Below are positions 3,399 to 45,969 of a DNA stretch of 64,000 nucleotides, piece after piece; position 1 is the first letter of the stretch, and each line of letters opens with the position of its first letter. The DNA is from Rhizophagus irregularis (taxonomy: Eukaryota; Glomeromycota; Glomeromycetes; Glomerales; Glomeraceae). The position numbers were made by a program, and so were the translations under genes. The notes under the pieces were generated by a model. That model was not told the origin of the DNA. It saw only the letters and a list, made by a program, of their open reading frames with translations, and searched no databases. The stretch lies in assembly GCF_026210795.1 (NCBI RefSeq), contig NC_089433.1, positions 868,001 to 932,000 of the forward strand. Reading direction: 5' to 3'.

Positions 3399-5187
3399 CA
3401 TGTGAAACGGGTGGTCTCCTTCGTCAGTATCTAAACGAACGTGTTATTTAAAATCTCTTTTAAATAATAATTAAAAATAACCATGATAATTATCCTTAGT
3501 GATAAAAGTAATATCAACTACTTCTCCAGGAGTATCAAAAATATAGGCATTTCTATCTCGTGGCAAGTTATTCGCTTTTCCTGCAAAGATTCTTGATAAT
3601 GTCGGAAATTTTATATCGGGCACATAAGAAGATTCATTAAAAAAAGCTCTAACAACCCCTGATGAATCATTATGAAAAGCGATTGTAAGTTCCATCTCTT
3701 TTGTTGCTTTAGGAAGGTTTTCTTCATATAATGGCTGTAAAGTTTCATGTTTTAAATCAATACATTCTTCCAAGAAATCTTTCCATGGTACGTCCTTTGG
3801 CGCAGAATCTTCTGGGGCTCCATCATAATGTACAATAGCTTTTACAATTGAAAGTTTTTTGGCATCGTCTGGCATACATTTCTTTTGAAATTCCGATCGC
3901 ATTATATAATTATCAACAGGTTGGTTTACGGTAACAATAACGGAATATCTCTGAGCAACATTGATAGGAAGACGATGAATCTTATTTCGTTTAGTATAGG
4001 AACCTTCTACTTCTATAACTTCCATTTCATGTTTATCAATTGAAAAGAAGAATGCCGAAAATGCGCTGAAAGATAAGAGGTTATGAAACAACACATAATG
4101 AATTATTAAAATTTTAAATTGTATTGATACTATAATGACGTAAATACGTAAATTTACCTAGTATTAATGATACGAAGACGATATCTTTTATTAGAAACAA
4201 ATTCAAATTTAGCAAGACCAGAATTATCCACGCATTTGGATACATGTGGAGCTTGTGAACAATCGAAATTATTTTTTCCGTTGATCTATCCGTTATCGGG
4301 AACTAAACAAGAGTTTAAATTAACGCCATGCGTCTATTGCGTCATTGTATGATGACATTTCTTATTGTCCTTACCTGCCTAATATAAATTATTAATAATG
4401 TAAATTTTTTATTAAAAATATAAATATAAATATAAATCAATTAACATGAAATTAAAACAATTGTAGATCAACTTTAATTTACCTCATCGCCTTCGCTTGA
4501 AGGAGTCAAGAATTTTTTTAATAAAATTTCTGATTCCGTGTGATGATAATCAGTCAACATGACGATGATTTCCTCATCGTATTCATTTAAATACGGGTCA
4601 TCAGGATCGTGAATGACTGATAAAATGAAAATGAAAAAAAAGCGTTTTAAAATTCCAAAAAAAAAAAATAGTCGACTTAAATATGAATTATTAACTTACT
4701 TAACGCTCCAACAACTCCCATCGACATATTGCGTCAATGCGTGTGAATGGCTAAAATTCGGTGATATCACGTTAGACATTTCAGTTTCACCATTCAAAAA
4801 GAAAATTGTATATACTTACTACCAATAAGTGCCGGCTTGATCAGGAACAGTAAAATCATAAGTAAATGCGTAATTGTCTGGTATCAAACATTGAGTCTGA
4901 CAATGTTATATATTACCAGTGAACGAGAAACGGAAATATAGAATTAGAATGTGTAAGTTACGTAAAGACGCTTATTTAAGAACATGAATTGATTGAACTC
5001 ACTTGTCCTGCCACCCCGTCAAACCTAAAAATTGATTATAAATTAGTCATTTATTTTAATAAAAAAAAATCATTAACTATAGCCGATAATTACATACCAA
5101 GGAGTCCCTCTTTGGAACACTCCATGTGCGTGAATGAATTGCTGGAGATATTTATTTGTTAATAAATAATTATTCAATAAACATACC

Positions 5188-6753
5188 CCCTATAAGAAAT
5201 ATGTATACGGAAAGGATACGTTTTGTATACATTTTATGTACGTTTCTATAGATTCCGTATACAAATTCCGTGTATTTAATAAGCAATTCATTTTTGAACA
5301 TCTTTTAAAAAAACTAATGTATACAAAATGTATACGGAAAAAATTAATCATGCGGAATGTATACGGAATTTTTAAACTTAATATTTTTAGAAAATAATTT
5401 TACAAAAATCTCGTATCATAACACGAGATCACGTGATTGTTTATTGTTTTGTTATGATACGTTTATTTGTTATTTTTTTCTAAATTTTTCTTCTTTTCTT
5501 CGTCAATCGTTTAAAAAAAAAATTTTTTTTTTTTTTGTGCCTCATTTTAAAAAATTTTTTTTCATCACTCTTCTTTAAAAAAAAAATTTTTTTGATTTTA
5601 TTCTTTTATTCCCACTCTTCTTTTTTTAAAAAAAATTTCTTCTTTCTATTTCTATTTCCTCTTTATAAAAAATTTTTTATTTTTCTAACTTTGACGTCCT
5701 CCCTTTAAAAAAAAAAATTTTTTTAACTTTCCTAACTTCGTTACCCTCTTTAAAATTTTTTTTTTTTTTGATTTATTCTTTATTCCCTTTTCTTTTTTAT
5801 TTATATTTATCCCTTTTTTTTTATTTCATAGGCCAGCAGATTTTTTTTTGTGAGAGGATTCAGTTTCTTTTTTCTTTTTTGTAGATCAGTTTGAGAGTCC
5901 TTTAGGTTGTTTCAGTTTTATTGCTTCAGAGTCTTCTTTTTTTGTAGGTCAGTATTGGATTTATTTTGTTGTTTTGGTTTCTTTTTCATCAGATGCTTCA
6001 TAATTCTTTTCTTTTATGTAGGTCAGACATTCTGGAGTTCTCTTTCTTTTTTTGTAGGAATGCTGGCCTTTGGTGACTTGGACGATTGCAGATACTATAT
6101 GAAGGGGGGTTTGTTTCCAATTAAGTTAGACATTCTTATGTTTCTTTTTTTTGTTTTTTAGGTTGTTTGACTCCAAATGAACCTGAACTTACAGATAATT
6201 TTGGTTGCAATAGGGTGGTTTTAATAAAGAGGGAATTTTCATAATATATTTGTATTTCGTTTATTTTTTATTTTTTATTTAATTTAATAAAGTAAAATTA
6301 GATTTATGTAAATACAATTATAGTAAACTGTAATACAAATAGTAAATTCAGTGACCAAATCGTATAAATTTCGTGATAAAATCAGTATGAATCCCGTGCA
6401 AATTCCGTATCCAAACCATATTTTTAGTGATACGGAATAGTGCTTCGATCCGGATGGGTTTTTAACGGATCAATCCGCGGTTTACTACGGTTTGGCAACG
6501 GTTTATTTGAGTTGGAGCTATAAGTTTGGCCAAAATTAATAAAATTTGAAGAAGAATAATTTTTTCAAATCTGACAAAAATTATAGTTTGACAAAAATAA
6601 TAGAAAAATGTTGTGATCCTAATCAACGGATCAATCCGGATAGAAGCACTAATACGTAATTGTGCATTTTTCCGTATCCTATTATGATACGTTATTTCTA
6701 AGGAAAAAACCGTATAAAAACTTTATAAAAACGTATCCAATTTTTTTATAGGG
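5188..6753. mobile_element. non-autonomous DNA transposon, CCCTATAA family, copy 1
   Basis: Starts CCCTATAAG and ends TTTTTTTATAGGG, flanked by a 3-bp duplication ACC (5185-5187 and 6754-6756). No transposase is present. The left 200 bp repeats ATGTATACGGA motifs; the middle is alternating T-runs and short A-runs (5500-5850); 5830-6180 has repeated TTTTTGTAGG/GGTCAG units; the right end repeats CGTAT-type motifs. It sits in intron 1 of the multicopper oxidase remnant. A closely similar copy spans 46612-49356 (itself interrupted), and short relatives lie at 18238-18404 and 49721-49971. The 3-bp duplication would fit CACTA- or PIF/Harbinger-type transposases; which one is not shown here. Confidence 0.85.
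6438..6651. mobile_element. hAT-type MITE nested in CCCTATAA copy 1
   Basis: 214 bp with terminal inverted repeats TAGTGCTTCGATCCGG / CCGGATAGAAGCACTA and an 8-bp duplication ATACGGAA / ATACGTAA (one mismatch). The homologous position in copy 2 (between 49260 and 49261) is an empty site, which confirms the borders. Its termini match those of the 1.1-kb elements at 9776 and 36540, so it is probably an internally deleted member of the same family. Confidence 0.85.
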
Positions 6754-21498: not shown

Positions 21499-23805
21499 AT
21501 GACAAATTATTATTGGATTATAGCTCAACATTCTGGAAAAGTTCTTGAAGTTGAAAATGGTTCTTTTTGTAGTTGTGCTAACATTATACAACATACTAAG
21601 AAATCTGAGCTTGACCCCTTCGTAAAGTGTTGCATATTCTTTTAATAAAAATAGTTTGTTATTATTAATAATAATTTGATTATTATTTAATTAATCATTT
21701 TTTTTTTATCTATATTTAGGTTGATATGCAACTCTGGTATTTTGATGGTGGATTTATTGTAAACAAAAGATCTGGCTTCGTGATTGATGTCGCTGAAGGT
21801 ATGTAACACTATGTATGATTCATTATTATAAACCGAAATCTTCTAATTTCTAACTCAAAAACTTTTTTTCTTTACTAATCAAGAGATAATCGAAAATTGT
21901 AAGTAATTATGTTTTAAAATATTATTGTGTGTTTTTTTTCTTTAATTCCATAATTAACGTATTTCAATAATAATTAAGGTACGAAAATTATTCAATATCC
22001 AAGGAAACCTGAACCATCTCAAAATCAAGAATGGGAATACAACCATGAGGACAACACTATCGGTTTGAAATCTAATCGAAATTTTGTCCTTGATGTTGAG
22101 GTAAAAATGTTATTGAAATACATTACTAGAAATAAATAATTAAGAATTCAATATTTAATCCCTTTTCTTGTTTTTGTTACAGGAATCAAAAACAGATAAT
22201 CATGCCTTCATCATCCTATATGAAAAGCATGGTGGAGAGAATCAACAATTCATTTTGCAAAAATGGAATGATTGTTCAGTTATCGAAAATGCAGTACCGA
22301 AAATTATTGACAATTATAGATTTTTGCCTAAATTATCACAAAATTTCCTTGAAATTTTGAATGATGACGAATATTATGATATTAATATTGAAGTTGGTAA
22401 CGACCCACATGTAAAAACATTTCATGCTCATATGATTATTTTAAATTACCGTTCTCCTTATCTACGAAGTAAGTTGTCAACTAATAAAAAGAATAATGAT
22501 GGAACTTTGGCGCATATTGAACTACCTAATATTTTACCCGAAATTTTTGAAGTGATTTTAAGGTAAGTATTAATTACTATGTATTATTTTTTTTTTTATT
22601 TATCAATATATTTTAATTTCAATCGTTATCTTAGATACATTTATGGTGGAAAACTTTCTCTGAAAGAATGTGATTCTACGGATGTAATTAAGTTATTAGT
22701 TGCCGCTAAAGAACTAGATCTTCAGGAATTAATTATCTATATACAATCTTTTTTGATTGAATATAAAGCAAACTGGATGGAACAAAATTTTGAATTAATC
22801 TATCGAACGAGCTTTGAAAATAATTCTTTCTTGGACCTTCAAAAATATTGTAATAATTTAATATCTAATGAACCGGATAAGATATTCAGGTCACCAAATT
22901 TCACTTCAATTCCGGAAAAGCTTTTGATTTCAGTTATTCAAGATGATAATCTTCAAATGAGTGAAATTCAAGTTTGGGAGCATGTACTTAAATGGGGAGT
23001 CGCTCAAAATCGAGAATTGCCATCTGATGTCGCAAACTATTCAAAAGATGATTTCAACACTTTGAAGAGTACTTTACAACAATGCATCCAGTTTATTAGA
23101 TTTTACAATTTATCATCTGTAGAATTTGCGGAAAAGGTATTTCCTTACAAAAAAATTTTACCGAAAGAATTATGTAAAGATTTATTATTAAGTCTTTTGA
23201 ATCCTAATAACAAGAAAGGTGATTCAAAACCTCGTATACCTAGAAACATTGATATAAAAGATATTGATTCTAATATTATTACATCTCAACATGCTGAAAA
23301 AATCTCAAAATGGGTCGATAGATTAGATGTTAATGATGAGCAAGATTCTCCATACGAATTCAAATTATTATTTCGTGGATCTCGTGATGGATTCTATCCT
23401 AATAAGTTTCATGAAATTTGTGATCTACAATCTCACACTGTGACAATTGCTAAAGTGAAAGACAGTAACGAAATTCTTGGAGGATATAATCCTCTTGAAT
23501 GGAAATCTGTTGATAGATATAGTAATACTTATGATAGTTTTATATTTTCTTTTAATAATAAAAATAGAAACGAGAATTATATTTTAAGTCGTGTAAAAGA
23601 TAATCAATATGCTATAGATAATAAATCTTATTATGGTCCATCATTTGGTAACGGAGATCTTATTATATGGGGATTAGATATTAAAGCATTTGGTAATTAT
23701 TGTAATGTTTGTAAAAATTCTTATGAAAGTTCGATTAGGGAAACTGAAGAGAGATTTTATGTTGAAGAATATGAAGTATTTCGATTGATGAAAATTTACT
23801 CATGA
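21499..23805 (+). CDS. ricin B-like lectin + BTB + BACK + TLDc protein
   Basis: Five exons with GT..AG borders and matching phases: 21499-21621, 21720-21798, 21979-22100, 22183-22562, 22635-23805 (about 624 aa). Residues 1-150 are beta-trefoil-like (IIAQHSGKVLEV, GFVIDV, NQEWEY, NFVLDV, NQQFIL: repeated hydrophobic strands with QxW-type motifs). Residues about 155-255 are a BTB/POZ domain (YYDINIEVG, FHAHMIILNYRSPYLR). Residues about 260-370 are BACK (ANWMEQNFELIYRTSFENNSF, IPEKLLISVIQ, VWEHVLKWGVAQN). Residues about 440-624 are TLDc (FKLLFRGSRDGF, FHEICD, ILGGYNPLEW, DSFIFSF). BTB-BACK proteins usually act as Cullin-3 adaptors; TLDc is linked to oxidation resistance and V-ATPase regulation. 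A lectin-like front end suggests a carbohydrate- or ligand-dependent version (inference). A possible 15-nt cassette exon lies in intron 2. Confidence 0.9.
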
Positions 23806-24056
23806 ATTTTTTTCTTTATAAAAAAAAACAAATAAAAAAATAATAACAAAAATAAATTATTTACAAATGCTTAAAATGCTTAGCTTATTTACTTATCACA
23901 TGAACATTTCACATGATTGATATCAAATCAAATGTTGTCTCACGCACTAAAATTTAACGTTGCACAGACATTATTTTATTAAAAACCCGTTTCACAAATT
24001 ATGCAAATCATTGGGGAATTCTTTCTCATTTCTTCTTTATCGAATTAATTTATATA
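23806..24056. promoter_or_regulatory. intergenic spacer between the two BTB-TLDc genes
   Basis: 251 bp between the stop of the first gene and the ATG of the second, containing both the 3' end of one and the promoter of the other. No specific motif is claimed. Confidence 0.35.
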
Positions 24057-25665
24057 ATGGATGATGATAAACTTTTTTTATCTAAATTATCCCAAAATTT
24101 ACTTGAAATTTTAAATGATGAAGAATATTATGATATAACTATTGAAGTTGGTAATGACCCTCAAGTAAAAATATTTCGTGCGCATATGATTATTTTATAT
24201 TATCGTTCTTCATATTTACAAAGAATTTTATCGACTAATAAAAGAAAAAATGATGAAACTTTGACACATATTAAATTACCAAATATTTCACCTAAAGTTT
24301 TTCAAATAATTTTAAGGTAATAAAATTCTAAATTTAACAGGACTTTAAACAAAAAATTTAATATAATTTAATATAATTTAATATTCCTAATCCTAATTTT
24401 ATAATTTTTTTTTTATTATTATTTTTAGGTATATTTATAGTGGAAGAATTTCTTTGAAAGAAAATAATATTTTAGATATAATTAATTTACTAGTTTCTGC
24501 TAGTGAACTTGGTATTCAGGAATTAATCCTTTACATACAATCTTTTTTGATTGAAAATAAATCAAACTGGATGGAACAAAATTTCGATTTAATCTATCGA
24601 ACAAGCTTTGAAAATGATTCTTTCTTGGATCTTCAAAAATATTGCACTGAATTAATTTCTAAACAACCAGAAAAAATATTTAATTCAACAAATTTCACTT
24701 CAATTTCAGAAAAACTTTTAATTTCAATTATTCAAAATGATAATCTTCAAATGAACGAAATTCAAGTTTGGGAAAATGTTCTTATATGGGGACGTGCTCA
24801 AAATCCAGAACTTCCATCTGATATCACAAACTATTCAAAAGATGATTTTAATGTTTTAAGGAATACCTTGCAACAATGTATTCCATTTATTAAATTTTAC
24901 AATTTAACTACTAAAGAATTTGTGGATAAAGTATTACCTTATAAAAAAATTTTACCAAAGGATTTATATAAAGATTTATTAAAAGTCCTTTTAAATTATT
25001 TAGATCCTAATATCAAACTAAATGATAGAACAAAACCCAACGTAACTAAAGAAATTATTAATACTGAATCTATTGATTCAAAAATTATTACACATCAACA
25101 TGTTGAAGCAATCCCAAAACCCAACGTAACTAAAGAAATTATTAATACTGAAACTATTGATTCAAAAATTGTTACACATCAACATGTTGAAACAATCTCA
25201 AAATGGATCGACAGATTAGAAATTACTGATGAGTTAACTTCATCTTATGAATTCAAATTGTTATTTCGTGGATCTCGTGATGGATTTTGTCCTAAAAAAT
25301 TCCACGAAATTTGTGATAATCAATCTCGCACTGTTACGCTGGTTAAAGTAAAGGGCAACAACGAGATCCTTGGAGGATATAACCCGACTGAATGGATGTC
25401 TGATTATAGTCGGAATTATAATGAGGATTGTTTTATATTCTCTTTTAATAATAATATAATTAAAGATTGTATTATAAGTCGCGTAATGGCTAATAATGGA
25501 GCTACATGGAATTGTTTTTGTTATGGTCCATTATTTGGTTCTAATGATCTTATTATATGGGGATCCAGAGGTGAATGTCGTTGTTTTAAATCTGACTATG
25601 AAAAACCGATTAGAAAAGAGAGAAGATTTTCTATAGAAGAATTTGAAGTATTTAAAGTCGTGTAG
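24057..25665 (+). CDS. BTB + BACK + TLDc protein
   Basis: Two exons, 24057-24316 and 24429-25665, joined as R|YIYSGRISL (about 498 aa). Residues 1-90 are BTB (YYDITIEVG, FRAHMIILYYRSSYLQ). Residues about 90-215 are BACK (NWMEQNFDLIYRTSFENDSF, ISEKLLISIIQ, QVWENVLIWGRAQNPELPSD). Residues about 325-498 are TLDc (FKLLFRGSRDGF, FHEICD, ILGGYNPTEW, DCFIFSF, LIIWG). It is a clear tandem paralogue of the gene at 21499-23805 but lacks the lectin-like front end. The BACK-TLDc linker carries a perfect-length 28-residue direct duplication (PNVTKEIINTESIDSK... repeated with few changes; DNA period 84 bp from about 25032). The probable role is a Cullin-3 adaptor-like or oxidative-stress protein, by family only. 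Confidence 0.9.
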
Positions 25666-26800: not shown

Positions 26801-29800
26801 TAGTGTTTCGGGCGAAACCGAAACTAAATTTTTGGCGAAACTTCCGAAACTTGGCGAAACTAGTTTCGCCACCAGTGCAAAATTCCGAAACTGGCGGAAT
26901 TTCCGAAACCTAGCGAAACTTGCCCAAACTTCCGTAACTTCCGTAACTTGGCAAAACATGTTTTATTTATTTTTTTGTAATACATGACTGGTTTAACAAA
27001 AAAAATAACAAAATTTATTTATAAATTGCAACTTTACAATTTAGAATATTACAATATTACATAGTATTAATTATTTCATCAGCTTCGGCAGCTGGATCCC
27101 ATTCAATATCATCATTTTCATTCATAGGAACGTCTACTCTATTATCTTGAATCTCATCTTCTACACTATCTATACTATCTTCAATTATATCACCCAAAGT
27201 ATCAACAAATGCATCTAAGTCCAAAATATTATCAATATTTAATTCTTCCTCCTCACCAATTACTATTTCCTCCTCATTATTGTAATAATCAAGTAATTCA
27301 TCTTCCAATTCAAGAAGGTCTTGGTCGGGATTCAAATGTGCATCAATTAATATTTGATGAATTTCTTCAGTGGATTTTTCTATACCATAATAAGGCAATT
27401 CTTTTTTCACATTTGCATGATAATAGGCTGAAAGTTTATACATATTTTCAACTTTATTTAAGCCTAAACGGGTCCTTCTTTTGCCATATATCCAACCAAG
27501 ACTTGACCATACTCGCTCACATCCAGCTGCATGAGGTGTGACGGAAAAAAGTTTAAGTGCTAGTTGAACTAAGTAATCCTCATCTTTAGGAAAGCTATCC
27601 TCAATTGAAAACCACCAAGTATATGGAGTTTCAGTATCACCCATTTCAATATCAAAAGGTTTTTCTCGTATACGATATTGTTTCATTTGATGCATTAATT
27701 CTTTACGTTCAGCTTTGTTTTTTCCCATTTTCATAAAAATTTCATCTGCTATCATTAATAAATCTCTAAACAGACCTCGTGCCCAGCAAATTTCTAAAGT
27801 ATTTATTTGGTATGATAAATTTAATTTAGTAAATAATTTTATAATAATAACTATAATTTTGTCTTTGAAAAAAAAAAATGTGTTTGAATTTTCCATTTAG
27901 TGATTTATTAATTATTATTATAAGAATTACAGATAATATGATCCAAACTTACCAGTATAATACGGGTGTAAAAAAAAGCATAATAAATATATTGGATCAG
28001 CAAATTCAGCGTAACGACGGTTAAAAATTGAAATACACTGCTGACGAAAAACTCGATGATCATTATTAGGTAATTTTTTAATTGCAGCTCCAAGTTTTGC
28101 AAGTCCAAGAAAACAATCAGCAAGGGTGCAAGACTGAGATTCTAATGCTGCAATTGATTGTTTAATAGGACGTAAGGTAAATGCTAACGCACGTACATCA
28201 TCAAAAAATGCACGTGATCGTAAAACTGATAATACTGCTGTTGAAAGGTTTTTGGGTTTTTCACATTTTAACTAAATAAAAAGCAAAAAAATGAAATTAT
28301 TTGTTGAATTAGTAATTTAATGAATTCAGACAAATGGTTCAAAATCTTACATTTTCTAATGGTACTTTATGGCGCATAATTGAATCAACACAGTCATACA
28401 TAGTGTGCCATCTGGTATTTACCCATTTCTTCAATCCACCTCCACTAATACCACAAGCTTTAGCTTCTTCTTTTAATGCAGAACCTTTTTATATTAAATA
28501 AATTAATAAAACAATTGTAATATCAAAAAATAAAATAAAATAAAATTTAAATTAAATTACCTCCTTGATGGCTTTTTTTAAAGTATGTCACAATAGTATT
28601 ACATTTTGTTAAAATCCGATTTGCAAATGAAGTAGAGCAAATATCTTTTGAAATCAGATTAATAGCATGTGCCATGCAACGCACATTAAGAATATTTTTA
28701 TACTTTTCTGTGATAATTTGTCGTGCATTTCGAATATTTGCTCCTGAATCCGATACAATTGCTGAAAAATTTGCTGGACCAATTTCATCAATTATTTCAT
28801 CAATTGTTTTGGCTAAAAATTCGCCAGTATGGCTTTCACTTGATAGATCCTTTAAGCACCACAAATACTCCTTATGGTTGAGTGTGTGAATTAAAAAATC
28901 CCAAATTGACTCATTTGCTGAGTTTGTCCACCCATCACATGCTTGTTAGATTTAAAATAAAGATTAATTAAAATTAAATTAAAATCATTAATCATTAATA
29001 AATCAATAAACAACATACACAATGTTAAATTCACTGTATTTTTCAAATCTTTCATAACTTGTGTGTTCACAACTGCAGTTTAGTCTGCCAGAAAGTAATT
29101 CTTTTGATGGTGGCGTGTATCCTGGACGTAGAGTCTTCAAAAATTCAACAAAAAAAGGATTTTCAATTACATGCCATGAAATGCCACATACAACAAATGC
29201 TTTTACACAAGCACGATCAATTTCATGAATTCTATCCTCAGAGAGTTGACTACTTTCATGAAATTCTGACATTTTTGTTTGAATTGAACCATCATTAAGT
29301 TTTCGCTTTTTAGATGAAAGATTGGTCATATTTCCTTCAGCTTTTGCAGCAAGATGATTTAAGAAAAAGTTCCTTGTATCAGCCGGTACTTTAGAACAAT
29401 CATTAGCGAAGTGTGCTTCCAACTCTTGTGGTGAGCCCTTTTTCCAAAATAAATCACAGTATACACAGGTTGCTTCATAGTGACCTTCTGATTCTTTTCT
29501 ACCTTGTATAGCATTATCTCTCCATACCAAAGACTTAGGACGACCACCAGAATTTTTACTTTTCTTTTTTGTTGGAGTTATAGGAGTTGCATTTGGGGAA
29601 GGGTTAGAAAAGGTAAAAATTTGTGTAGACATAATTGAAGAAAATGATAATTGATAAGTGATTGTTTTCAAAGTTGGGCGATAAGAAAAAAGGGGGTTCA
29701 GGGGTAAATGGTTATTTATAAATAAACGCGTCAGTCACGTCATATAAATCTCCTTACATTTTTGCGAGGTAATACACGTGACATTTTTAGTTTCGCCAGG

Positions 29801-31247: not shown

Positions 31248-34200
31248 ATGGCTCAAATCAAAGGTAAATATAACATACTAAGCAGACTGAAATATTAAAA
31301 TTTTTATTTAATAATAAATAAATTTATTTATTAATAATTTAAATATTATCTATTACCTTACGTAATATACATATGATATGATTTAAATGAATTACATTCT
31401 TGTTTAAAAATTATATTAAACAATTAGCTCGTAAGTTAATAAGTTATTTTATAGTTTAATAATATTGGAATTGCTTATTTTATTATATTCTATATAACTA
31501 AATAATTTATTTAACGATTAATAATATTATATATATAGTTAGTAAGTTATCAGTTATTTAAATCTTTAGTTCTTTACTCTATTTTGCATAATATTCAAAT
31601 AACTAAATTCTTTGTTTAAATAACTATTCAATAATCTATTATGATACAGATGGTAAGTTACAATTCTTAAAAGTTATATTTACTTGTTTAATATTTTATA
31701 TAACTAATTATATTCTTTATTTAGATTGTAAGTAATATATTTTATTTACAGTATATAATATTATATTATTTATATGATTATATCTAACTAATTATAATAA
31801 TTAATAATACTACAGGGTGTAAGTTATATGTCATCTACATTATTTCTACTATTTGTATAGTTTAAACTAACTAAATCTATTTACAAACAAATTATTTGGT
31901 TATTTCTTTTAGTTCGTAAGCTGAGTTATTATTTAATTCTATTGTTATGTATGTATATAATATTTACATATAAACTAACTAAATTTTTATTTAAAAATTA
32001 TTTAATGATATAGGGGGTAAGTTATTATTTAATTCTATTATGCTATCAATATTTCTATTGAGTATATAATTTAAATTTTAAACTAATTAAAATCTTTATT
32101 TTAATAATATAGCTTGTAAGTTATTTATTTACTTCGACTATTATTTATTTATATAATAATAATATATAATTTAAACTAAAAATTCTCTATTTAAAAAATT
32201 ATTTAATAATATAGCTTGTAAGTTATTTATTTAATTCTATTATTGCTTGCATATTTATATATTATATATAATTTAAACTAACTAAATTTCTTATTTAAAC
32301 TTAATAATATAGGGAGTAAGTTATTTATTTAGTTCTATTTTATTATATATTTATATGCATTTTAAATTTTTTCAAAAAATTATTTTGTAATTTCTTTTAG
32401 TTGGTAAGTCATAAGTTATTTATTTAATTTTATTATTACATCTTTATAATATTTATACATAATTCACATAATTTAACCTAACTAAATTCTTTATTTGGTA
32501 ATTTATTTTAGAACGTAAGTTATTATTTATTTAATTCTATTAGTATATATTTATATACTGTATTATTTATAATGTTTACGCATAATTTATAATTAAATTT
32601 TTTAATTAAAAAATTATATGATAATTTATTTTAGAACGTAAGTTATAGTTATTTATTTAATTTTATTTTTAAATATTTATAATATTTACATATAATTTAA
32701 ATTATGTAAATTCTTTATTTAAAAAATTAATTAATAACATAGGGGGTAAGTTATTTATTTAATTTTATTATTATATATTTGTATAATGTTTGCATACAGT
32801 TTAAGTTAACTAAATTCTTTATTTAAAAAATTATTTGGTAATTTCTTTTAGAACGTAAGTTATAAGTGATTTATTTAATTTATTATTATATATTTAGGAC
32901 ATTACAACTTATTTGTTAGTTTAATGTACTGATTCTTCTCTATTTTTTAAAAATCTAAAATATAATGAACATATAATAACATTTGTTTAAATACTTTCTT
33001 TAAATTATGATTATTTGAAATTTTCTGAAATTTTCTATATTCTCAAAATTTCTTAGATTTATTTAATCTATTTAATGAAAATTCCTTCTCCCACTTTATA
33101 GAAAATTCTGATGTTAAACAAACAATTAAATTGAAATGAACTTATATAATGTTTAAATGTAATTTAAATTAACTAAACTTTATTTAAATAATTTCATTTA
33201 GATCGTAAGTTATAAGTTATTATTCAATTGTATTATTACACATTTGCAGTACATTATATTTACATATAATTCAAACAAACTAAATTCCTTATTAAAAAAA
33301 ATTATTTAATAATATAGGAAGTAAGTTATTCATTTAATTCTACTATTATTATATACTTATGTAATATATTTATATATGTAATTTAAATTAACTAAATTCT
33401 TTATTTAAAAAAATTATTTAATATTATACTAGGGAGTAAGTTATTTATTTAATTTTATTATTATTACATAATTATATAATATTTACATATAATTTAATGA
33501 ATTAAATTCTTCATTCAAAAAAATTATTTAATAATAGAGAGTAAGTAATTTTATTATTACATATTTATAATATTTACATATAATTTAAACTAACTAAATT
33601 CTTTATTTAAAAATTATTTTGTAATATCTTTTAGTTGGTAAGTTATAAGTTTTTTGTTTAATTTTTTTTATTGTATTTGTATATAATGCTTATGTATAAT
33701 TTAATTCTTTATTCACAAATTATTTAATAATATAGCTCGTAAGTTATTTATTTAATTCTATGATTTATTATATTTTTATAATTTTTATATAATATTTGCA
33801 TATAATTTAAATTAATTAAGTTCTTTATTTAAAAATTATTTGGTAATTTTTTTTAGAACGTAAGTTATAACTTATTTATTAATTCTATTATTATAAATTT
33901 GTATAATGTAATCTAAATTAACTATTTAAAAATTATTTAATAATAGTTGGTAAGTTTTAGGTTATTTATTTAATTCTACGATACATATATCTATTTAAAC
34001 TAATTAAATTCATAATTTAAAATTTTTTTAATAATATAGAAAGTAAGTTACTATTTAATTTTATTATTATATATTTATACAATATTTTACATATAATTTA
34101 AACTAAATTCTTTATTTAAAATTTATTTATTAATTAATATAGGAGGTAAGTTATTTATTTAATTATATATAGGGATGGCAACGGTCAGTTATAGTCGGTC

Positions 34201-35438
34201 ATGGTCAGTTATAATCGATTATAGCAATTTAAACGGTCAGTTATGGTCGGTTAAAAATTGGTTAAACGGTCAGTTAAATGGTCGGTTATACCATTTTACT
34301 TAAATAATTGGTTAAATGGTCAGTTAAATGGTTAAAAATGGTCGGTCAGATGTTAAAACGGTTGGTTATGATCATAACTGTTGCCATCCCTAATTATATA
34401 TTATATAAAATTTATATATAATTTAAACTAATTAAATTCTATATGAAATTATTTAATAATATAGCAAGTAAGTTATTTATCTAATTCTCAATAGTTAATA
34501 TATTTACGTATATTTACATATAATCTAAACTAACTAAATTATTCAAAAATTATAGCTCGTAAGTTATTTATTTTCTATCATTATATATTTATATAATATT
34601 TGCATATAATTTAAACTAACTAAATTCTTTAATAAATTGTTAATATTATAGGAAGTAAGTTATTATTATTACATATTTATATAATATACATAATATTTAT
34701 GTATAATTTAAACTAATTAAATTCTTTAATCTTTATATAAAAATTATTCAATAATATAGCTTGTAAGTTAATTATTTAATTTTACTATTACATAATTATA
34801 TAATATTTATATATAATTTAAACTAATTAAATTTTTTATTTAAAAAAAAACTTAATAATAGATGGTAAGTTATTTATTCAATTCTAATATTATGTATTTA
34901 TATAATGATTGCATATAATTTATATTAATTTAATTCTTTATTTAATAAATTATTTAATAATATAGAAAGTAAGAATTTTAATATATATTTAGTATATAAT
35001 ATTTTTATATTTAAAAGTTAAACTAACTAAATATTTTATTTAAAAATTATTTAATCAAATAGATTGTAAGTTAGTAGTTATTTAATTTTATTACATATAA
35101 TTATATAATTTGTATATAATTAAACTAACTAAATTCTTAAAAAATTTAGATTGTAAATTATTATTTAATTTTGTTATCATAATACTTACATAAAATTTAA
35201 ACTAATTAAATCCTTTATTTAAAAAAATTATTTAATAATATAGGGGGTAAGTTATTTACTTAATTTTGTTATTGTATGTTTATATAATTTAAAATAACAA
35301 CTTTTTATTTTAAAACTATTTAATAATATAGGAGGTAGGTTATTTATTATATATTTATATAATATTTATATATGATTCATTTAATTAATTGAATTCTTTA
35401 TTAACAAAATTATTAATAATGTAGAGAGTGAGTTTTAA
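31248..35438 (+). CDS. candidate gene assembled from 36 single-codon (3-nt) exons
   Basis: Exon 1 (31248-31263) is ATGGCTCAAATCAAAG followed by GTAAAT. Then 36 triplets, each between YAG and GTAAG or a close variant: CTC 31428, TTA 31539, ATG 31650, ATT 31725, GGT 31816, TTC 31913, GGG 32014, CTT 32113, CTT 32215, GGA 32313, TTG 32401, AAC 32512, AAC 32635, GGG 32743, AAC 32852, ATC 33202, GAA 33318, GGA 33433, AGA 33538, TTG 33635, CTC 33736, AAC 33857, TTG 33947, AAA 34040, GAG 34143, CAA 34465, CTC 34556, GAA 34652, CTT 34760, ATG 34862, AAA 34966, ATT 35063, ATT 35150, GGG 35244, GAG 35332, AGA 35425. Exon 1 ends in phase 1, so codons straddle each intron: MAQIK, then ALNDWFRASW, IEQREHRRKI, AQLERATRTY, ENYWGE, then SEF and TAA (35436-35438) if the last donor is unused. 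The reading is stop-free and helix-like; one other phase has stops at once. Function unknown; no family recognised. Confidence 0.5.
31264..35424 (+). repeat. tandem array of about 36 AT-rich intron-like units (72-120 bp)
   Basis: Each unit reads GTAAGTTATTTATTTAATTC, an AT-rich middle, (T)TTAAACTAACTAAATTC (branch-site-like) and TTTATTTAAAAATTATTTAA, ending TATAG or TTTAG. Spacing between triplets is 72-120 nt except 164 nt (first), 347 nt (32855-33201, probably an insertion) and 319 nt (34146-34464, containing a hAT MITE). Units are diverged but alignable. The 5' splice site, branch-like motif and 3' AG are the best-kept parts. The array breaks off at a 499-bp element (35472-35970). Confidence 0.85.
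34170..34392. mobile_element. hAT-type MITE inside one intron unit
   Basis: 223 bp with inverted ends TAGGGATGGCAACGGTCAG / ACTGTTGCCATCCCTA and a perfect 8-bp duplication ATTATATA (34162-34169, 34393-34400). The inside is made of ATGGTCRGTTA-type direct repeats. Removing it restores a unit of ordinary length between triplets 25 and 26. Confidence 0.9.
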
Positions 35439-35471
35439 TTTTATTGTAGCATATTATTTAATGTTTATATA

Positions 35472-35970
35472 TGTTGTGCCTCAGATCGATTCATGCCTCA
35501 GATTGAAGCTCACGCACCTCACATTGAGATTGTCACCTGACGCACCTCATTTGAATCATTCAATAAAGTCTGTTATAAGTAAACTTTTTTTCTCATTAAT
35601 TAAACCACTTTTTGTAACATAAACAAACTTGTGCGCCATAATGAGTTACATGTTTCCTGAAATCTTTATGTAAATCTGATTCATATTGAAGTTTATACTT
35701 GTATTTTATCTGAAAAATCATTAAATTTTAAGTCATTTTTCAAATGAAAAGATTTAATGAGCATGATTCTAATTAATCTGAAATTTTAGGATTGTATACT
35801 TAAAATAATGATAAATAAGTTTACTTAGTACTTAAAAATACATTAAAATTGGAAATTTTGATGTTTAATTATAGCTCATTTTTATTAGCAATTGAGGTGC
35901 GTCAGATGACAATCTCAAACTGAGGTGCGTGAGCTTCAATCTGAGGCAAGAATCGATCTGAGGCACAACA
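35472..35970. mobile_element. long-TIR element, 499 bp
   Basis: Long inverted ends (about 80 bp): TGTTGTGCCTCAGATCGATT at the left and its complement ending GGCACAACA at the right, with inner TGAGGTGCGT motifs. Flanked by TATA on both sides, so the target duplication is TA or TATA. No transposase. It interrupts the 3' side of the micro-exon array. Confidence 0.8.
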
Positions 35971-36539
35971 TATATATCCCCTATTAAAGAAAAAATTTTC
36001 TAACGAAATGATCTATCAAAACAAAAATCTTTCCTATTAAAAATGGAATTTCCATCAAAAGAAAACAAATTCTCAACGAAATTATTTATCGAAAAAAACT
36101 CCCTATTAAAGAAAAATTCTTCAATGAAATTCTCTCAAAAAACCCCTTATTAAAAAGATGCTCCAATGAAATCTACCAAAAAATATAAATAAATTCTCAA
36201 AAGAAATTCTAAAACTCTAACGAGATTAACTATCAAAAAAAAGAAATTTCCCTATTATAAAAAAATTCTCCAATGAAATTTCTATCAAAAAACAAGCTCC
36301 GCTATTAAAAGAAATTCCCTATCAATAAAAAAATTCCCAACGAAATTTTTTTATCAAAAAATTTCCAAAGAAATTCTTATCAAAAAAAAAAGCTTTGCAT
36401 ATATTAAAAAAAAAAATATCTCTACCAAAAATTTTTTAAAACTACGCTAACCATGTGATTGACAAAATATGTTGCCGGGCAATGTCAGCTCGGTGCTGAT
36501 CTTTTTCAGCATCGGATAGCATTTTTTCAGACTCTGAGC
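35971..36539. repeat. degenerate tandem repeat, period about 40-50 bp
   Basis: From about 35978 to 36420 imperfect copies of CCCTATTAAAGAAAAATTCT and CAACGAAATTCTATCAAAA alternate. No gene. The last 120 bp before the hAT copy B contain CAGC/CTGATC motifs without clear structure. Confidence 0.6.
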
Positions 36540-37637: not shown

Positions 37638-37928
37638 CTCTGAGCTGATCTTTGTCAGACCCGGACACCAGAACCGTGGAATGCTTAAAATAGGTTTATT
37701 CAACAAAATATTAATGCTGTACGACTATCATTGGCTTAATATAGGTTTATTATACACTCATTTACACAACAAAATATCGGAGAAAAGGTTTTTCCTAGAA
37801 TGTTTAATTGTTCATGAAAGTGACGAAAAATTTTATTGATTATTCATTGAGAATATACAAAACGAATATTTCATTTGGTTTTTAGATTATAAGAAAATAA
37901 AATCTTTTAAAAAAATTATTCTTAAAAA

Positions 37929-39452
37929 ATGAAGAAAATTATTCTCGCTTTTGGCTCAACAGGCCTTGGCAAGACAACAATGGCTCATTTGCTTTGTGAA
38001 GCAAATGTTAAGGGTTCAAGTGGTATTGAATCTGCAACTAAAATAGCAGTATATTATGAAACAGATAAATATTTATATATTGATACTTGTGGATTTGGTG
38101 ATTCATCTGGTAAAACAGATGAAGAATTATTTCATGATATGATGTGTTTATTTCAAAGATATGGACAAAATAATATCTTTAATATCAATACAATATTATG
38201 GTTTTGTTCTGAGAGTGAAAGAGAGACAAGTCACTTACAACGTGAGGCTAATTTTATTCAACGTCTTGTCGAATATACTGATGAATGTAACCCAATAGAT
38301 TTATGGAAAAGTGTCTTGATTATAACAAAGGGCAATTTAAATTTGCGCAAATTAGTTGATGGACCAAAATCTGCTGCAAGGAATGCTTGTTGGGCTTTTT
38401 CTAATAAACAACATTACGAATTTAATGAAGATTCTTTCTTCGTTAAACACTTTCCATGTTGGATCTATGACACTGAAGGTATCACAGAAGAAAATGCACG
38501 TTGGGTTAAAATGGATTCTAAAACTCGTTTCGAATTTAATTGTTATCGTCAGGATGAAATAAAATCAAAAGTTCAACATTTGATTTCAAATTTTAGTCCA
38601 ATAACAATACGCTTTAAACAAGGAATATGTAAAAAATGCAATGTAATTGGGGATCCAAGGCTTTTCATCACACAATGTCATACCAAATCATTTTTTAAAC
38701 ATTCTATAAAAATCGAATATTTTCATCCTGAAGAAATTGTTCATTTTCATTCGGGAAGTAAGTTTCTTGTTCATGAACCTGATGAAAACTCAATAAAAAA
38801 GCTTTTTGAAAGTATATTCGATGGCGATCAAATTGAGATTCCTGTGTCTCAAGTTTCAAGTGAAATAGCAGAAAAAATTATTGAATCGTGCAAATTATTT
38901 AATAATCAAACAAATGCAGCACCAGAGTTACAACCAGAATTACAACCATCATTTATGTCACAAATAATTTCACACGCACCTCAAGCAGCATCAAATTTAT
39001 TACAAACAGTAGCGCCATTAGTGACGACATTGGCCGTTCCCAGAATGGCACCTAGTACTGTAACTTCTACTTATCTTCTTTCAGGTCCTTCAGTAGCCTT
39101 CCTTGTCATTTGCTCCGAAAGAAATAAGTGTTGTTATGAGGCAAAAAATATCTCATGTAAAAGGTGTAAAAAATTGATTGAAGAAATAAATGAAATAGGC
39201 TGTATTGAAAAATGTGATAATTGTAAAAAAGAATGGATAGAAACTGGTTGTGCAACTGGATATGGATGTTGTAAACAAGAAGAGGGAAAGCTCGGATGTC
39301 AAGCACATGAAAGATGCACAATATGTGATGAAGCTGCGATCGAATTAAATTCCCAAGGATGTACGGAATTTTGCGTGAAGTGCAAAGAAATGTGGAATAT
39401 TACACCAGGCTGTGATTCCGCTTCCAAACACGATGTGTTGATAATGGATTGA
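37929..39452 (+). CDS. AIG1/GIMAP-like GTPase with C-terminal Cys-rich modules
   Basis: Single-exon ORF of 507 aa. P-loop at residues 9-16 (GSTGLGKT), G3-type DTCGFGD at 52-58 and a degenerate G4 ITKGN at 132-136 (TKxD expected). Residues 1-220 are therefore a TRAFAC/AIG1-type G domain. A middle region of about 150 residues has CKKC and HFHSGSKF motifs. A Pro/Gln-rich linker with two near-identical PELQ units follows (residues 332-340), then a mildly hydrophobic stretch (380-395). Two copies of a Cys module end the protein: C-x2-C...GC-x3-C-x2-C-x3-W at 410-436 and 463-489, plausibly metal-binding. Such GTPases are expanded in glomeromycotan fungi; a role in membrane or defence-type signalling is family inference. 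A CTTTCAG tract near 39080 hints at an intron, but the only donor would make it 30 nt, so I keep one exon. Confidence 0.85.
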   Translation: MKKIILAFGSTGLGKTTMAHLLCEANVKGSSGIESATKIAVYYETDKYLYIDTCGFGDSSGKTDEELFHDMMCLFQRYGQNNIFNINTILWFCSESERETSHLQREANFIQRLVEYTDECNPIDLWKSVLIITKGNLNLRKLVDGPKSAARNACWAFSNKQHYEFNEDSFFVKHFPCWIYDTEGITEENARWVKMDSKTRFEFNCYRQDEIKSKVQHLISNFSPITIRFKQGICKKCNVIGDPRLFITQCHTKSFFKHSIKIEYFHPEEIVHFHSGSKFLVHEPDENSIKKLFESIFDGDQIEIPVSQVSSEIAEKIIESCKLFNNQTNAAPELQPELQPSFMSQIISHAPQAASNLLQTVAPLVTTLAVPRMAPSTVTSTYLLSGPSVAFLVICSERNKCCYEAKNISCKRCKKLIEEINEIGCIEKCDNCKKEWIETGCATGYGCCKQEEGKLGCQAHERCTICDEAAIELNSQGCTEFCVKCKEMWNITPGCDSASKHDVLIMD

Positions 39453-42735: not shown

Positions 42736-44087
42736 ATATCAAAAATATTTAAAAGAAGTGGGTGGGAATCCCTTAACAATAAAAACTTGCAATTATCAAT
42801 TTAATTCAAGATCTTCAGCCATACATGTGAAGATCAACGTGTAAATCCAAATTTTTTTCTTTGAATTCGTAAACCTGCTTCAAACCCGACAGCTCGGACA
42901 CGTGATCGATGTGGCGGTTGATCTTTTCTTTATGTAAAATAATTATTAAAAATCTAAGTTAAATGTTACACAAGACAAGATAAGCGGATGCACATCACAG
43001 GTCACGTTAACCTATCCTGATCATGTGGAAAGAGTAGCCTTCACAATGTAAATACCTTTTTAAGATTTTCGCGACAGTATATAAATTTCGATTATATTAA
43101 CTCTTTTCATTTTTATTTTTGTTTTTATTTTTTTCTGTTTTTTTTCATTATGATGCTCGTAGTCTAAATTAAGCAAATAATATTAATAATTATGTCATAG
43201 TTGTTGAATTAGTAAAATTTGCTTAATTTAAACTATAATAAGACCTTAGCATACTCGGTATTTGATATATAAATACATTAAAAACGATAAAATTATGCTT
43301 TTCCAACTATATAAATAAATATCGATTTAGGTATATCAAAGATTTTCATATGGATCCTTGACATATGGGGACGCCCGTAGCAAAAGGGGGGGATAGGCCA
43401 AAAAATTCAAATTTGAGATTTTATTATAATTATATGTCTATTAGTCTAATTATTAAGAAAATATGGTTTTTTATTAATAATATATTAGTAAAAAAGTTTA
43501 ATTTTGAAATTTTCTTATTATTTGCATTTTACTTTTATAGAATTAACAAGCAACATAAACTTATTAAAAGAAAATCAATACTCTTAGTAAATTGCCTGTA
43601 AAATTTAGTTTTAGATAAAAAAAAAAGGTCTGAAAGTCAATTTATTTCACAATTAAGTGATGATCTGCCAAATTTATCATGTGATTTAAATTGCGATTTT
43701 TTTTAAAATTACGGAATTATCCCATTCCCCCTTTTGCTACGGGCGTCCCCATATGGAGTTTGATAAATTTTTTATAATAAACACATGTTTCTTTTATGGT
43801 GTATAAATACGGGTTATATAATAATATTTATTATTTATAGTTAGATAATAGGTCTTTTAATACATGCACATTTACTTCCATTTTATAATTTTAAGTATTG
43901 TTATCAGTTATAAAAGGCGTAAAATTGAATTAATAATACAAAGTTAATTGCATCGATCCCTTTTTTAACAATGAATGACACAAAGCCATTGTTAAAAAGT
44001 CTTTATGTAGTTACTTTAAAATCAGTACAATGTAAGAGTTTTATCTGTATAAAAACATAAAAAAGGAAAAAAAAAGAAAAGTTTAGT
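42736..44087. other. intergenic with one MITE
   Basis: Holds the MITE at 43362-43755 and otherwise nothing recognised. Confidence 0.5.
43362..43755. mobile_element. palindromic-end element, TATGGGGACG family
   Basis: 394 bp whose ends are inverted copies of CATATGGGGACGCCCGTAGC, followed by AAAAGGGGG. If TA is the target duplication, the element proper begins TGGGGACGCCC and ends GGGCGTCCCCA. The reading frame inside (43365-43601) is not a gene. Related in style to 46265-46427. Confidence 0.8.
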
Positions 44088-45969
44088 ATGCAAAAAAATA
44101 TTAAAAATAATTTTAAAGATAATAATGATCATAAGATTCTTGAAAGAGAATCTCTAGAACATAATTTGTTGAATAAAATTCATTATAAAAAAGAATCTTC
44201 AGAAAACATTAAGCTTGATAATTATTACGAAAAAGATATAGCTAATAAAGAATTCGGGGTTTGTTTTAATTGTAATAAACCACAGACTGAAGAAAATTGG
44301 TGTTTAAATTGTAATTCTAAATTTTTTCAAAAAGAATTCAATAATTGGAGAAGTGAAAATATGCATATAGATAAATTTATACAAGAAGCTCAATTAAATG
44401 CAAGAAATAATAACGAAGTTATAGAATGGATTAATTATGATCATTTTATAAATATACAATATATTACTCGAGGAGGATTTAGTATTATTTATGGGGCTGA
44501 TTGGTTAGATGGAAGTATTGATTGTTGGAATTATGAAAAGGAAAATTGGAATAGAATTACTCAAAAAAATGGAATTCGTGTAATACTTAAGAGTTTAAAC
44601 GATTCTTCGAATATTCACGAAGATTTCCTAAATGAGCGAGGTAATTATTTTTTTAATTTTTAATTTTTTAAATGGCATTTTTTTTTTTATTAATATAAAT
44701 ATATATATACCATTTTTAGTTGAAAAATCATTTAAAATTTTTATATTCAGCTATAAATAATTATTCAAATTTTGTGAAAATTTATGGAATAACTAAAGAT
44801 CCAAATACATCAAATTATATAATTGTTTTACAAGAAATGCCAATGGGTAATTTAAGATCTATACTTATGATAAAAAAATGGAATCAAAATGATAAATATT
44901 ATAATATATACGAGATAGCAAGTTCACTTTCCGCTTTGCATAAATGTGATCTAGTTCACGGTGATTTACATAGTGGAAATATACTTTTTAAAGATATATT
45001 TACTGCTTATATAAGCGATTTTGGATTAAGTAAACCTGCGGATCAATCTATTGATTATAATGTGATTTCTGGAGTACTTCCATATATTGCTCCAGAAGTT
45101 TTACGTGGAAAACCGTATACAAAAGCTGCTGATATTTATAGTCTTGGTGTTATTATGTGGGAATTTACATCTGGTGTTCCTGCTTTTAATAATAGACAGG
45201 ATGATTTTAATCTTTCCTTAGATATTTGTAGAGGATTAAGACCAGAAATTATAGAAGGAACAGAACCTGATTATGAAGAATTAATGAAAAGATGTTGGAA
45301 TACTGATCCCAATAAAAGACCAACTGCAGATGAATTAGCAGAAATATTTGACGTGTTATCTACTAAATTTATAATGCTAATGAAGGATGAAGAAAGAAAG
45401 TCAGTACCAGCAGTACCAGCAATACCAGGTAAATAAGATTTTTTTTTCTTATATTAATTAAATTTAATCATTAATCGATTATTACTATTATAGAGAATAA
45501 ATCATATCATCCATTAACTTGCTATACAAGTAGAAAATTTGATTATTCTGTAAAGTTGAATGAAATTTTAAATCAAGAAGAATTAAGTTTTAAATTTACA
45601 ATAAATGAGAAAGATGATTATAAAGAAACAATATTAAGTGAAAGTTTAGGTAAGTATTACTTGTTTTTTTTTATTAATTTTAGGAGTTAGTATTAGTACT
45701 AGGTATAATGTATTATTTAATTAACTAAATAACTATGGTGATAAATAATCATTTGCCGCTATATAGTAAATGAATAGCAGAACCCTTTTATTAATACATT
45801 TTTATATTAATAACTTTTATAGAAAATTGTAAGATTTCTAGTACCATTTTAGGTAATTTACATTTTTTATTTAATGTTTATAATTTTTCATATTTTAAAT
45901 TATTATTTTTTTTTTAATTAATTATTTTTTTTTGTAGATATTAATCAAGAAAAAAGAGAAAAAAGTTAA
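44088..45969 (+). CDS. TKL-like protein kinase with N-terminal zinc ribbon
   Basis: Five exons: 44088-44640, 44720-45428, 45494-45649, 45823-45852, 45938-45969. N-terminus: CFNCNKPQTEENWCLNCN (two CxxC pairs) and FNNWRSENMHIDKFI, the usual leader of the expanded glomeromycotan kinase family. Kinase motifs: Gly loop ITRGGFSIIYGADW, VILK lysine, HGDLHSGNIL (HRD is HGD here), ISDFGLSK, PYIAPEVLRGKPYTKAADIY, CWNTDPNKRP. Exons 3-5 give a short charged tail ending REKS. Exons 2 to 5 join in phase. The exon 1-2 junction is off by one (exon 1 ends CGA G, while exon 2 must start on TTG AAA AAT CAT to read KNHLKFLYS), so a small lesion or an unusual splice site lies at 44634-44640. Likely a Ser/Thr signalling kinase by family. 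Confidence 0.7.

Follow-up and report, generated by a model that had tools for sequence, protein, structure and literature searches.

Arrays of three-nucleotide exons predicted upstream of kinase exons in a gene family of Rhizophagus irregularis

The locus considered here raises the question of whether exons of a single codon can follow one another by the dozen within one gene. It lies in a stretch of 64,000 nucleotides of Rhizophagus irregularis DNA (contig NC_089433.1, positions 868,001 to 932,000), analysed as a whole and referred to below as the window, in which 36 base triplets alternate with AT-rich, intron-like units. The spacing of these triplets, their reading frame, the dependence of that frame on triplet order and, in paralogs, its continuity into a kinase were established by the analysis. 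As read from the genome sequence, the array is very probably the 5' portion of a protein-coding gene, present here as a 3'-truncated copy, that belongs to a large R. irregularis kinase family in whose intact members one-codon exons would be spliced in order onto the kinase.

Spacing and reading frame of the arrays

Consecutive YAG-NNN-GTRRR sites were found at positions 31425-35432, and the spacing was 3 nt at all 36, which bears out the run of triplet-separated units described in a sequence-only reading of this DNA, as do the exceptional donors noted there (GTAAA at the 33rd triplet, GTAGG at the 35th and GTGAG at the 36th). Each of the 33 GTAAG sites in this region had a YAG exactly 3 nt upstream and none had a YAG at 0-2 or 4-15 nt; elsewhere in the 64-kb window, YAG-N3-GTAAG occurred once. 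All parts of the gene lie on the plus strand. Exon 1 (31248..31263, ATGGCTCAAATCAAAG), as identified from the sequence, encodes MAQIK and, ending in phase 1, contributes one base to the codon that follows; intron 1 (31264..31427, 164 nt) has the form GTAAAT...TTAG. The array itself (31428..35427), delimited from the sequence and the family-wide frame test, comprises 36 three-nucleotide exons and the 35 introns between them. First bases of triplets 1-19 are at 31428, 31539, 31650, 31725, 31816, 31913, 32014, 32113, 32215, 32313, 32401, 32512, 32635, 32743, 32852, 33202, 33318, 33433 and 33538, and those of triplets 20-36 at 33635, 33736, 33857, 33947, 34040, 34143, 34465, 34556, 34652, 34760, 34862, 34966, 35063, 35150, 35244, 35332 and 35425. 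Joined in phase 1, exon 1 and the triplets encode the peptide MAQIKALNDWFRASWIEQREHRRKIAQLERATRTYENYWGE with no stop; a comparison of this peptide with the genome gave no contiguous match.

Two regularities proposed earlier held only in part. Thus, the unit length of 72-120 nt applied to most introns but not to intron 1, to intron 16 (32855..33201, 347 nt), which is enlarged by an unrelated stretch, or to intron 26 (34146..34464, 319 nt), which is enlarged by an insert with arms at 34164-34185 and 34377-34398 that resembles a miniature inverted-repeat transposable element (MITE). Similarly, a branch-like CTAAC or CTAAT had been ascribed to every unit, whereas CTAAY 15-60 nt before the AG was present in 17 of the 36 window introns, a number nevertheless above the 4.4 expected from shuffled introns. 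MITE-like elements with terminal inverted repeats were observed twice in the window, at 34164-34398 (within intron 26) and at 35466-35976 (at the array end).

The existence of a family of such arrays was evident from a scan of the genome (146.7 Mb, 32 contigs) with a 15-letter motif containing a 3-nt gap, AATATAGNNNGTAAGTTA, which gave 828 + 800 = 1,628 exact matches as opposed to 1 + 1 for the reversed-pattern control; the identical motif with a 4-nt gap gave 4 matches and its control 3. No match to the array motif was found in viral contigs or in bacterial and archaeal genomes. Since the motif covers 29% of the exons in the studied arrays, the genome is estimated to contain approximately 5,000-5,600 three-nucleotide exons in more than 100 genes, a figure extrapolated from arrays that were not a random sample. 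Ten arrays were fetched in order from the unbiased motif scan together with twenty that are closely related to the one in the window, and the main sample for frame tests consisted of 31 arrays with 1,230 recognised triplets, ~20-80 per array. Spacers were nearly always 3 nt, except that most arrays included one 1-nt spacer close to the 3' end. Two 4-nt spacers were noted in the array designated L024 and one 2-nt spacer in L025, the rest of both arrays being regular at 3 nt.

The main argument that the triplets are coding, which is independent of expression data, came from the avoidance of stop codons across introns. In phase 1, the frame of the ATG exon, the main sample contained 1 stop in 1,128 codons, compared with 42.8 (sd 5.3) when triplet order was shuffled within arrays and with a minimum of 26 in 2,000 such shuffles; the sole stop, in L014, coincided with a weak donor (AAA/GTAAA) of doubtful status. 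Reversal of triplet order gave 40 stops in 1,128 codons, codons formed by skipping one triplet included 41 stops in 1,026 as against 38.6 expected, and skips of more triplets (up to seven) likewise showed no depletion, with counts equal to chance or higher. A second sample, of 58 kinase loci retrieved by searching with the kinase exon, had 0 stops in 302 codons versus 10.6 expected. Phase 0 also contained few stop triplets (5 of 1,230), but this frame matches neither that of the ATG exon nor that of the kinase and was rejected. Since all joints are in phase 1, each codon would consist of the last base of one triplet and the first two of the next, and stop avoidance thus links bases separated by ~100 nt of intron, which is hardly explicable without ordered joining and translation. 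The interpretation of the triplets as translated single-codon exons and of the units as introns, also part of the sequence-only reading, is therefore strongly supported by the stop statistics of the family, together with the in-frame continuation into kinase exons in paralogs; the splicing itself is a prediction from the genome.

Junction to the kinase and the predicted route of splicing

Downstream of the last triplet (usually TTG), the order of elements was an intron, YAG, a single nucleotide (mostly A), GTAAGT, an intron of ~70-95 nt and an exon, for example EFGKSGNTIIDDFILEKKLKWIPYNKFKNVEYLNEGGFGTIYKA. In the arrays tested, the 1-nt exon led to an in-frame kinase exon (EFGKSGNTIIDDFILEKKLKWIPY...), and the kinase was in frame only when the single nucleotide was included. 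Exact matches to the 1-nt-exon motif numbered 93 in the genome and 0 in the control, and a stricter motif that combined the last triplet with the 1-nt exon had 66. All ten arrays from the unbiased scan were located upstream of kinase exons, kinase exons likewise lay 3' of the arrays most closely related to that in the window, and orientation relative to the kinase was the same in all arrays seen. Conversely, 56 of 60 further kinases found by the kinase-exon search were preceded by an array within ~900 nt or less; at least several of the four sampled kinases that had none were interrupted by transposon-like DNA. The downstream protein matched the PF07714 kinase domain (E 2.8e-34) in Pfam, the domain being PF07714/PF00069, and neither a NACHT nor an ANK match was present in two downstream proteins scanned. 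The kinases of L009 and L011 have long C-terminal extensions, of 300-500 amino acids, that resemble coiled coils.

First exons of paralogs were short, started with ATG and ended in phase 1 (MAQSNNE, MGQCISK, MAHSNDK, MDQRIE). Among those of L018, L010, L022, L026 and L033, several begin with MGQCI(S/G)K, which resembles a signal for N-myristoylation and palmitoylation, and others with MAHSNDK or MDQRIE. Array starts often encode residues of the type L(N/D/S)DW(F/W/Y), and R, D, F, W, N and Y are abundant in the array-encoded segment.

The corresponding 3' elements were sought downstream of the window array, where neither a 1-nt exon nor a kinase exon was found, and for this reason the array looks like a 3'-truncated member of the family. 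The last triplet is followed by what begins as another intron of the array type (GTGAGTTTTAATTTTATTGTAGC..., 35428..35465, plus strand), read-through of which reaches a stop after SEF, and this intron is interrupted by the adjoining MITE-like element (35466..35976, no strand assigned), which starts ~40 nt past the last triplet and has 88-nt terminal inverted repeats that are 94% complementary. The sole kinase-like match in the window (44349-45346) belongs to a separate gene.

Splicing signals were highly uniform among the 1,128 introns of the main sample. The donor consensus was GTAAGTTAT, with 86-100% agreement per position overall and 95-100% for GTAAGT at +1 to +6; the acceptor was TAG in 95% of introns and otherwise CAG; CTAAY occurred 15-60 nt from the intron end in 74%; and median intron length was 98 nt. 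GT, the first five donor bases and YAG had partly served as criteria for the selection of sites, and thus only the further positions provide independent support. An intact member of the family would begin with a short exon carrying the ATG, in some cases followed by an acidic one, and continue with ~20-80 three-nucleotide exons, a 1-nt exon and PF07714 kinase exons, all spliced in linear order. Since exon definition requires exons larger than 3 nt, each intron would probably be recognised singly, by its strong GTAAGT donor, CTAAY branch site and YAG acceptor within a median of 98 nt. Intron definition with step-wise (recursive) removal is probably the simplest route for such exons; each round would add 3 nt, recreate the next donor and leave one codon.

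Several observations weigh against this account. The window copy has no kinase and may be a pseudogene, and its own stop test was only suggestive (0 stops versus 2.2 expected, P 0.06). Skip-one codons in the 58-locus sample, unlike those in the main sample, were mildly depleted of stops (2 versus 7.4, P 0.01). Unrecognised units leave gaps in some arrays, and codons spanning such gaps were left uncounted. A few loci contain 2- or 4-nt spacers, which in L024 and L025 would shift the frame and may reflect pseudogenes, assembly errors or unused sites. In addition, comparison of the joined DNA of several arrays with the genome revealed no intronless copy, an outcome that is uninformative in itself.

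Homogenised introns, diverse codons and alternative explanations

A marked difference between introns and the codons beside them was evident from pairs of near-identical introns. Thus, for pairs of introns from different genes with at least 98% identity (1.3% substitutions), the upstream triplet was identical in 11% and the downstream triplet in 22%, compared with 6.5% for random triplets and with 87-94% for 3-nt control windows placed a few bases off the triplet within the same introns, although such pairs are non-independent and intron homogenisation inflates the contrast. The within-gene counterparts were 46% upstream and 55% downstream. Introns were up to 100% identical between genes whose kinase exons were 88-94% identical. 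Colinearity of near-identical introns between genes was barely above baseline, and segmental copying is therefore inseparable from array-wide homogenisation. Base composition also differed between array and kinase: the middle base of the triplet, which is the third position of the codon, was T in 57%, G in 33%, A in 9% and C in 1% (31 arrays, L009-L039 and window), as opposed to T in 53%, A in 39% and G in 5% at the third position in the kinase exon of those genes. Within 3-nt exons, G thus seems to take the place of A as the wobble base, and one guess is that an extra AG acceptor is thereby avoided.

Other explanations of the arrays were weighed against these results. An unspliced satellite of tandem units kept apart by a constant 3 nt, such as a repeat that binds proteins or has a structural role, would agree with the AT-rich, tandemly repeated sequence and with the ~100-nt period reported by tandem-repeat software, but not with the avoidance of stops across units in just one phase and one order, with an ATG exon, a 1-nt exon and a kinase exon that share the frame, with canonical donor, branch and acceptor motifs or with the uniform orientation of arrays toward the kinase; this scarcely credible reading is already contradicted. 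That the arrays once were coding but are now decaying pseudogenes, the window copy included, is suggested by truncation of that copy and by transposon-like DNA that interrupts some members (L051, L057, L065 and L090), and is nonetheless improbable given over 1,400 practically stop-free codons across the family and strongly conserved donor sites, including those of arrays on intact kinases. A further explanation, rather unlikely, is a combinatorial array in which triplets are included or skipped by alternative splicing to give each gene a large repertoire of N-termini, as reviews report for such microexons in the NACHT-ANK genes of the truffle Tuber melanosporum. Units that are all 3 nt in length would preserve the frame through any number of skips, and only ~4% of skip-one junctions create a stop; protection from stops is nevertheless limited to consecutive joining in the main sample, and selection would thus mainly see the fully inclusive, ordered isoform.

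With ordered one-codon splicing retained as the preferred explanation, the arrays still have to be accounted for in origin. Repeated insertion of a mobile intron (an introner), perhaps with a 3-bp target duplication, would add an intron and a codon each time; it is consistent with near-identical introns whose flanking codons do not match in genes on different chromosomes, and a target duplication inside a triplet would preserve the frame. Even so, this origin is unlikely. An excess of adjacent identical triplets, such as single-unit duplication or 3-bp target duplication would leave, was not found (123 observed versus 123.9 expected), all ten arrays from the unbiased motif scan occur in one gene family and at one place, unlike dispersed introners, duplications of several units are visible (YDHPAYDHPAYDHP in L030 and a repeated block of 15 units in L015), and certain intron subtypes go with a particular triplet, as in one cluster that is nearly always followed by TTG. 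Of the two origins put forward in the sequence-only reading, introner insertion by itself does not account for the exclusive 3-nt spacing, whereas tandem duplication of an intron with its codon fits better, though only if codons change far faster than introns.

The data are read as concerted evolution of a minisatellite-like array combined with codon diversification, with selection, targeted mutation and intron-confined copying being indistinguishable here. The arrays would grow and shrink as tandem minisatellite-like repeats with introns kept homogenised, and codons would diversify through selection, a high local mutation rate or both. Because the repeat backbone would be spliced out, the corresponding protein segment would consist of variable codons only, and might be a fast-evolving recognition or interaction part in front of the kinase. 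A stronger proposal can be advanced only tentatively, namely a diversity-generating architecture in which a step-wise-spliced minisatellite of near-identical introns, each with one hypervariable codon, would provide more than 100 kinases with rapidly rewritable N-terminal recognition segments, the codons changing tens of times faster than adjacent intron bases, possibly by targeted mutation or intron-precise copying beyond selection alone.

If confirmed by transcripts, the arrays would give R. irregularis more minimal exons than any other organism, as far as is known (~5,000 of 3 nt together with the 1-nt exons). Handling of dozens of successive 3-nt exons by the spliceosome, including order and fidelity, would become testable, and one-codon exons would represent both an extreme test of splicing and a quick route to the evolution of a protein segment. 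R. irregularis is the most used of the arbuscular mycorrhizal fungi, and the presence of such exons would also explain why standard annotation likely misses the N-termini in a large family of its kinases.

Other features of the window include a kinase gene distinct from the array and of a type more usual in Rhizophagus (44061-45436, plus strand; PF07714, E 8e-34), in which a cysteine motif precedes the kinase domain and no array of 3-nt exons is present. Two adjacent BTB/BACK-TLDc genes (22159-25665, plus strand) were noted, the second with an 84-bp in-frame duplication at 25031-25203. Broken frames on the minus strand (27057-29734) resemble a hAT-type transposase, with no Pfam match in two pieces scanned, and an open frame of 508 amino acids (37926-39452, plus strand) has a P-loop-like start (GSTGLGKTT) and is perhaps an AIG1-like GTPase, with no Pfam match at default threshold.

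Comparison with known systems

The sequence-only reading knew of no described gene with a comparable run. This belief was mistaken, since three papers that cite Iotti et al. 2012 (PMC4986451, PMC9815663, PMC10197012) report arrays of codon-sized microexons in the NACHT-ANK (nank) family of Tuber melanosporum, with dozens of alternatively spliced 3-bp mini-exons; arrays of this kind thus exist. No description of a microexon array in Rhizophagus or other arbuscular mycorrhizal fungi was found in the open-access literature, a scope that largely excludes subscription papers and preprints, and the available portions of the R. irregularis assembly paper (Manley et al. 2023) treat exon-intron boundaries only generally. 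As described in those papers, the truffle system and that of Rhizophagus share an expanded gene family of a mycorrhizal fungus, runs of codon-sized exons and a putatively variable recognition part. They differ in phylum, in the protein concerned (a PF07714 kinase in Rhizophagus, an NLR in Tuber) and in the position of the array, which is N-terminal in Rhizophagus and, according to the same papers, in the C-terminal recognition part in Tuber. The 1-nt exon, the ~5,000 exons and the homogenised introns are additional in Rhizophagus, where the sequence signature is one of ordered full inclusion as opposed to the alternative splicing reported for truffle. If transcripts confirm the arrays, the truffle precedent would suggest that two unrelated mycorrhizal lineages independently placed arrays of codon-sized exons in expanded, putatively recognition-related families.

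Single elements of the architecture have counterparts elsewhere. Arabidopsis APC11 contains a constitutive single-nucleotide exon that, like the 1-nt exon described here, is needed for the reading frame (PMC4674806). In contrast with that one conserved gene, the Rhizophagus exon has 93 exact motif matches, belongs to a fast-evolving family and lies beside an array of 3-nt exons. Micro-exons of schistosomes exceed 3 nt in length, ranging from several to ~36 nt, are symmetric and encode mostly secreted proteins, and their genes are not known to contain arrays of 3-nt exons between homologous introns. The micro-exon gene families of schistosomes resemble the Rhizophagus family in combining numerous tiny exons with marked variability (PMC10399815). 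Classical recursive sites of flies leave zero nucleotides. The arrangement of a 3' splice site followed immediately by a 5' splice site, with step-wise intron removal possible, is shared with recursive splicing in Drosophila and human (PMC6224609, on recursive-splicing exons). Unlike at the fly sites, one codon would be left at each Rhizophagus step.

Homogenised repeats with hypervariable codons are also known from PRDM9 zinc fingers. The arrays resemble hypervariable tandem repeat proteins, such as those with fungal NLR repeats, in combining homogenised repeats with few hypervariable codons (PMC9815663). In NLR repeats and PRDM9 the repeat backbone is translated, whereas in Rhizophagus it would be intronic and the protein would keep the variable codons only. 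Among these systems, the Rhizophagus arrays are a new, far larger and independent variant of the truffle-type arrays of codon-sized exons.

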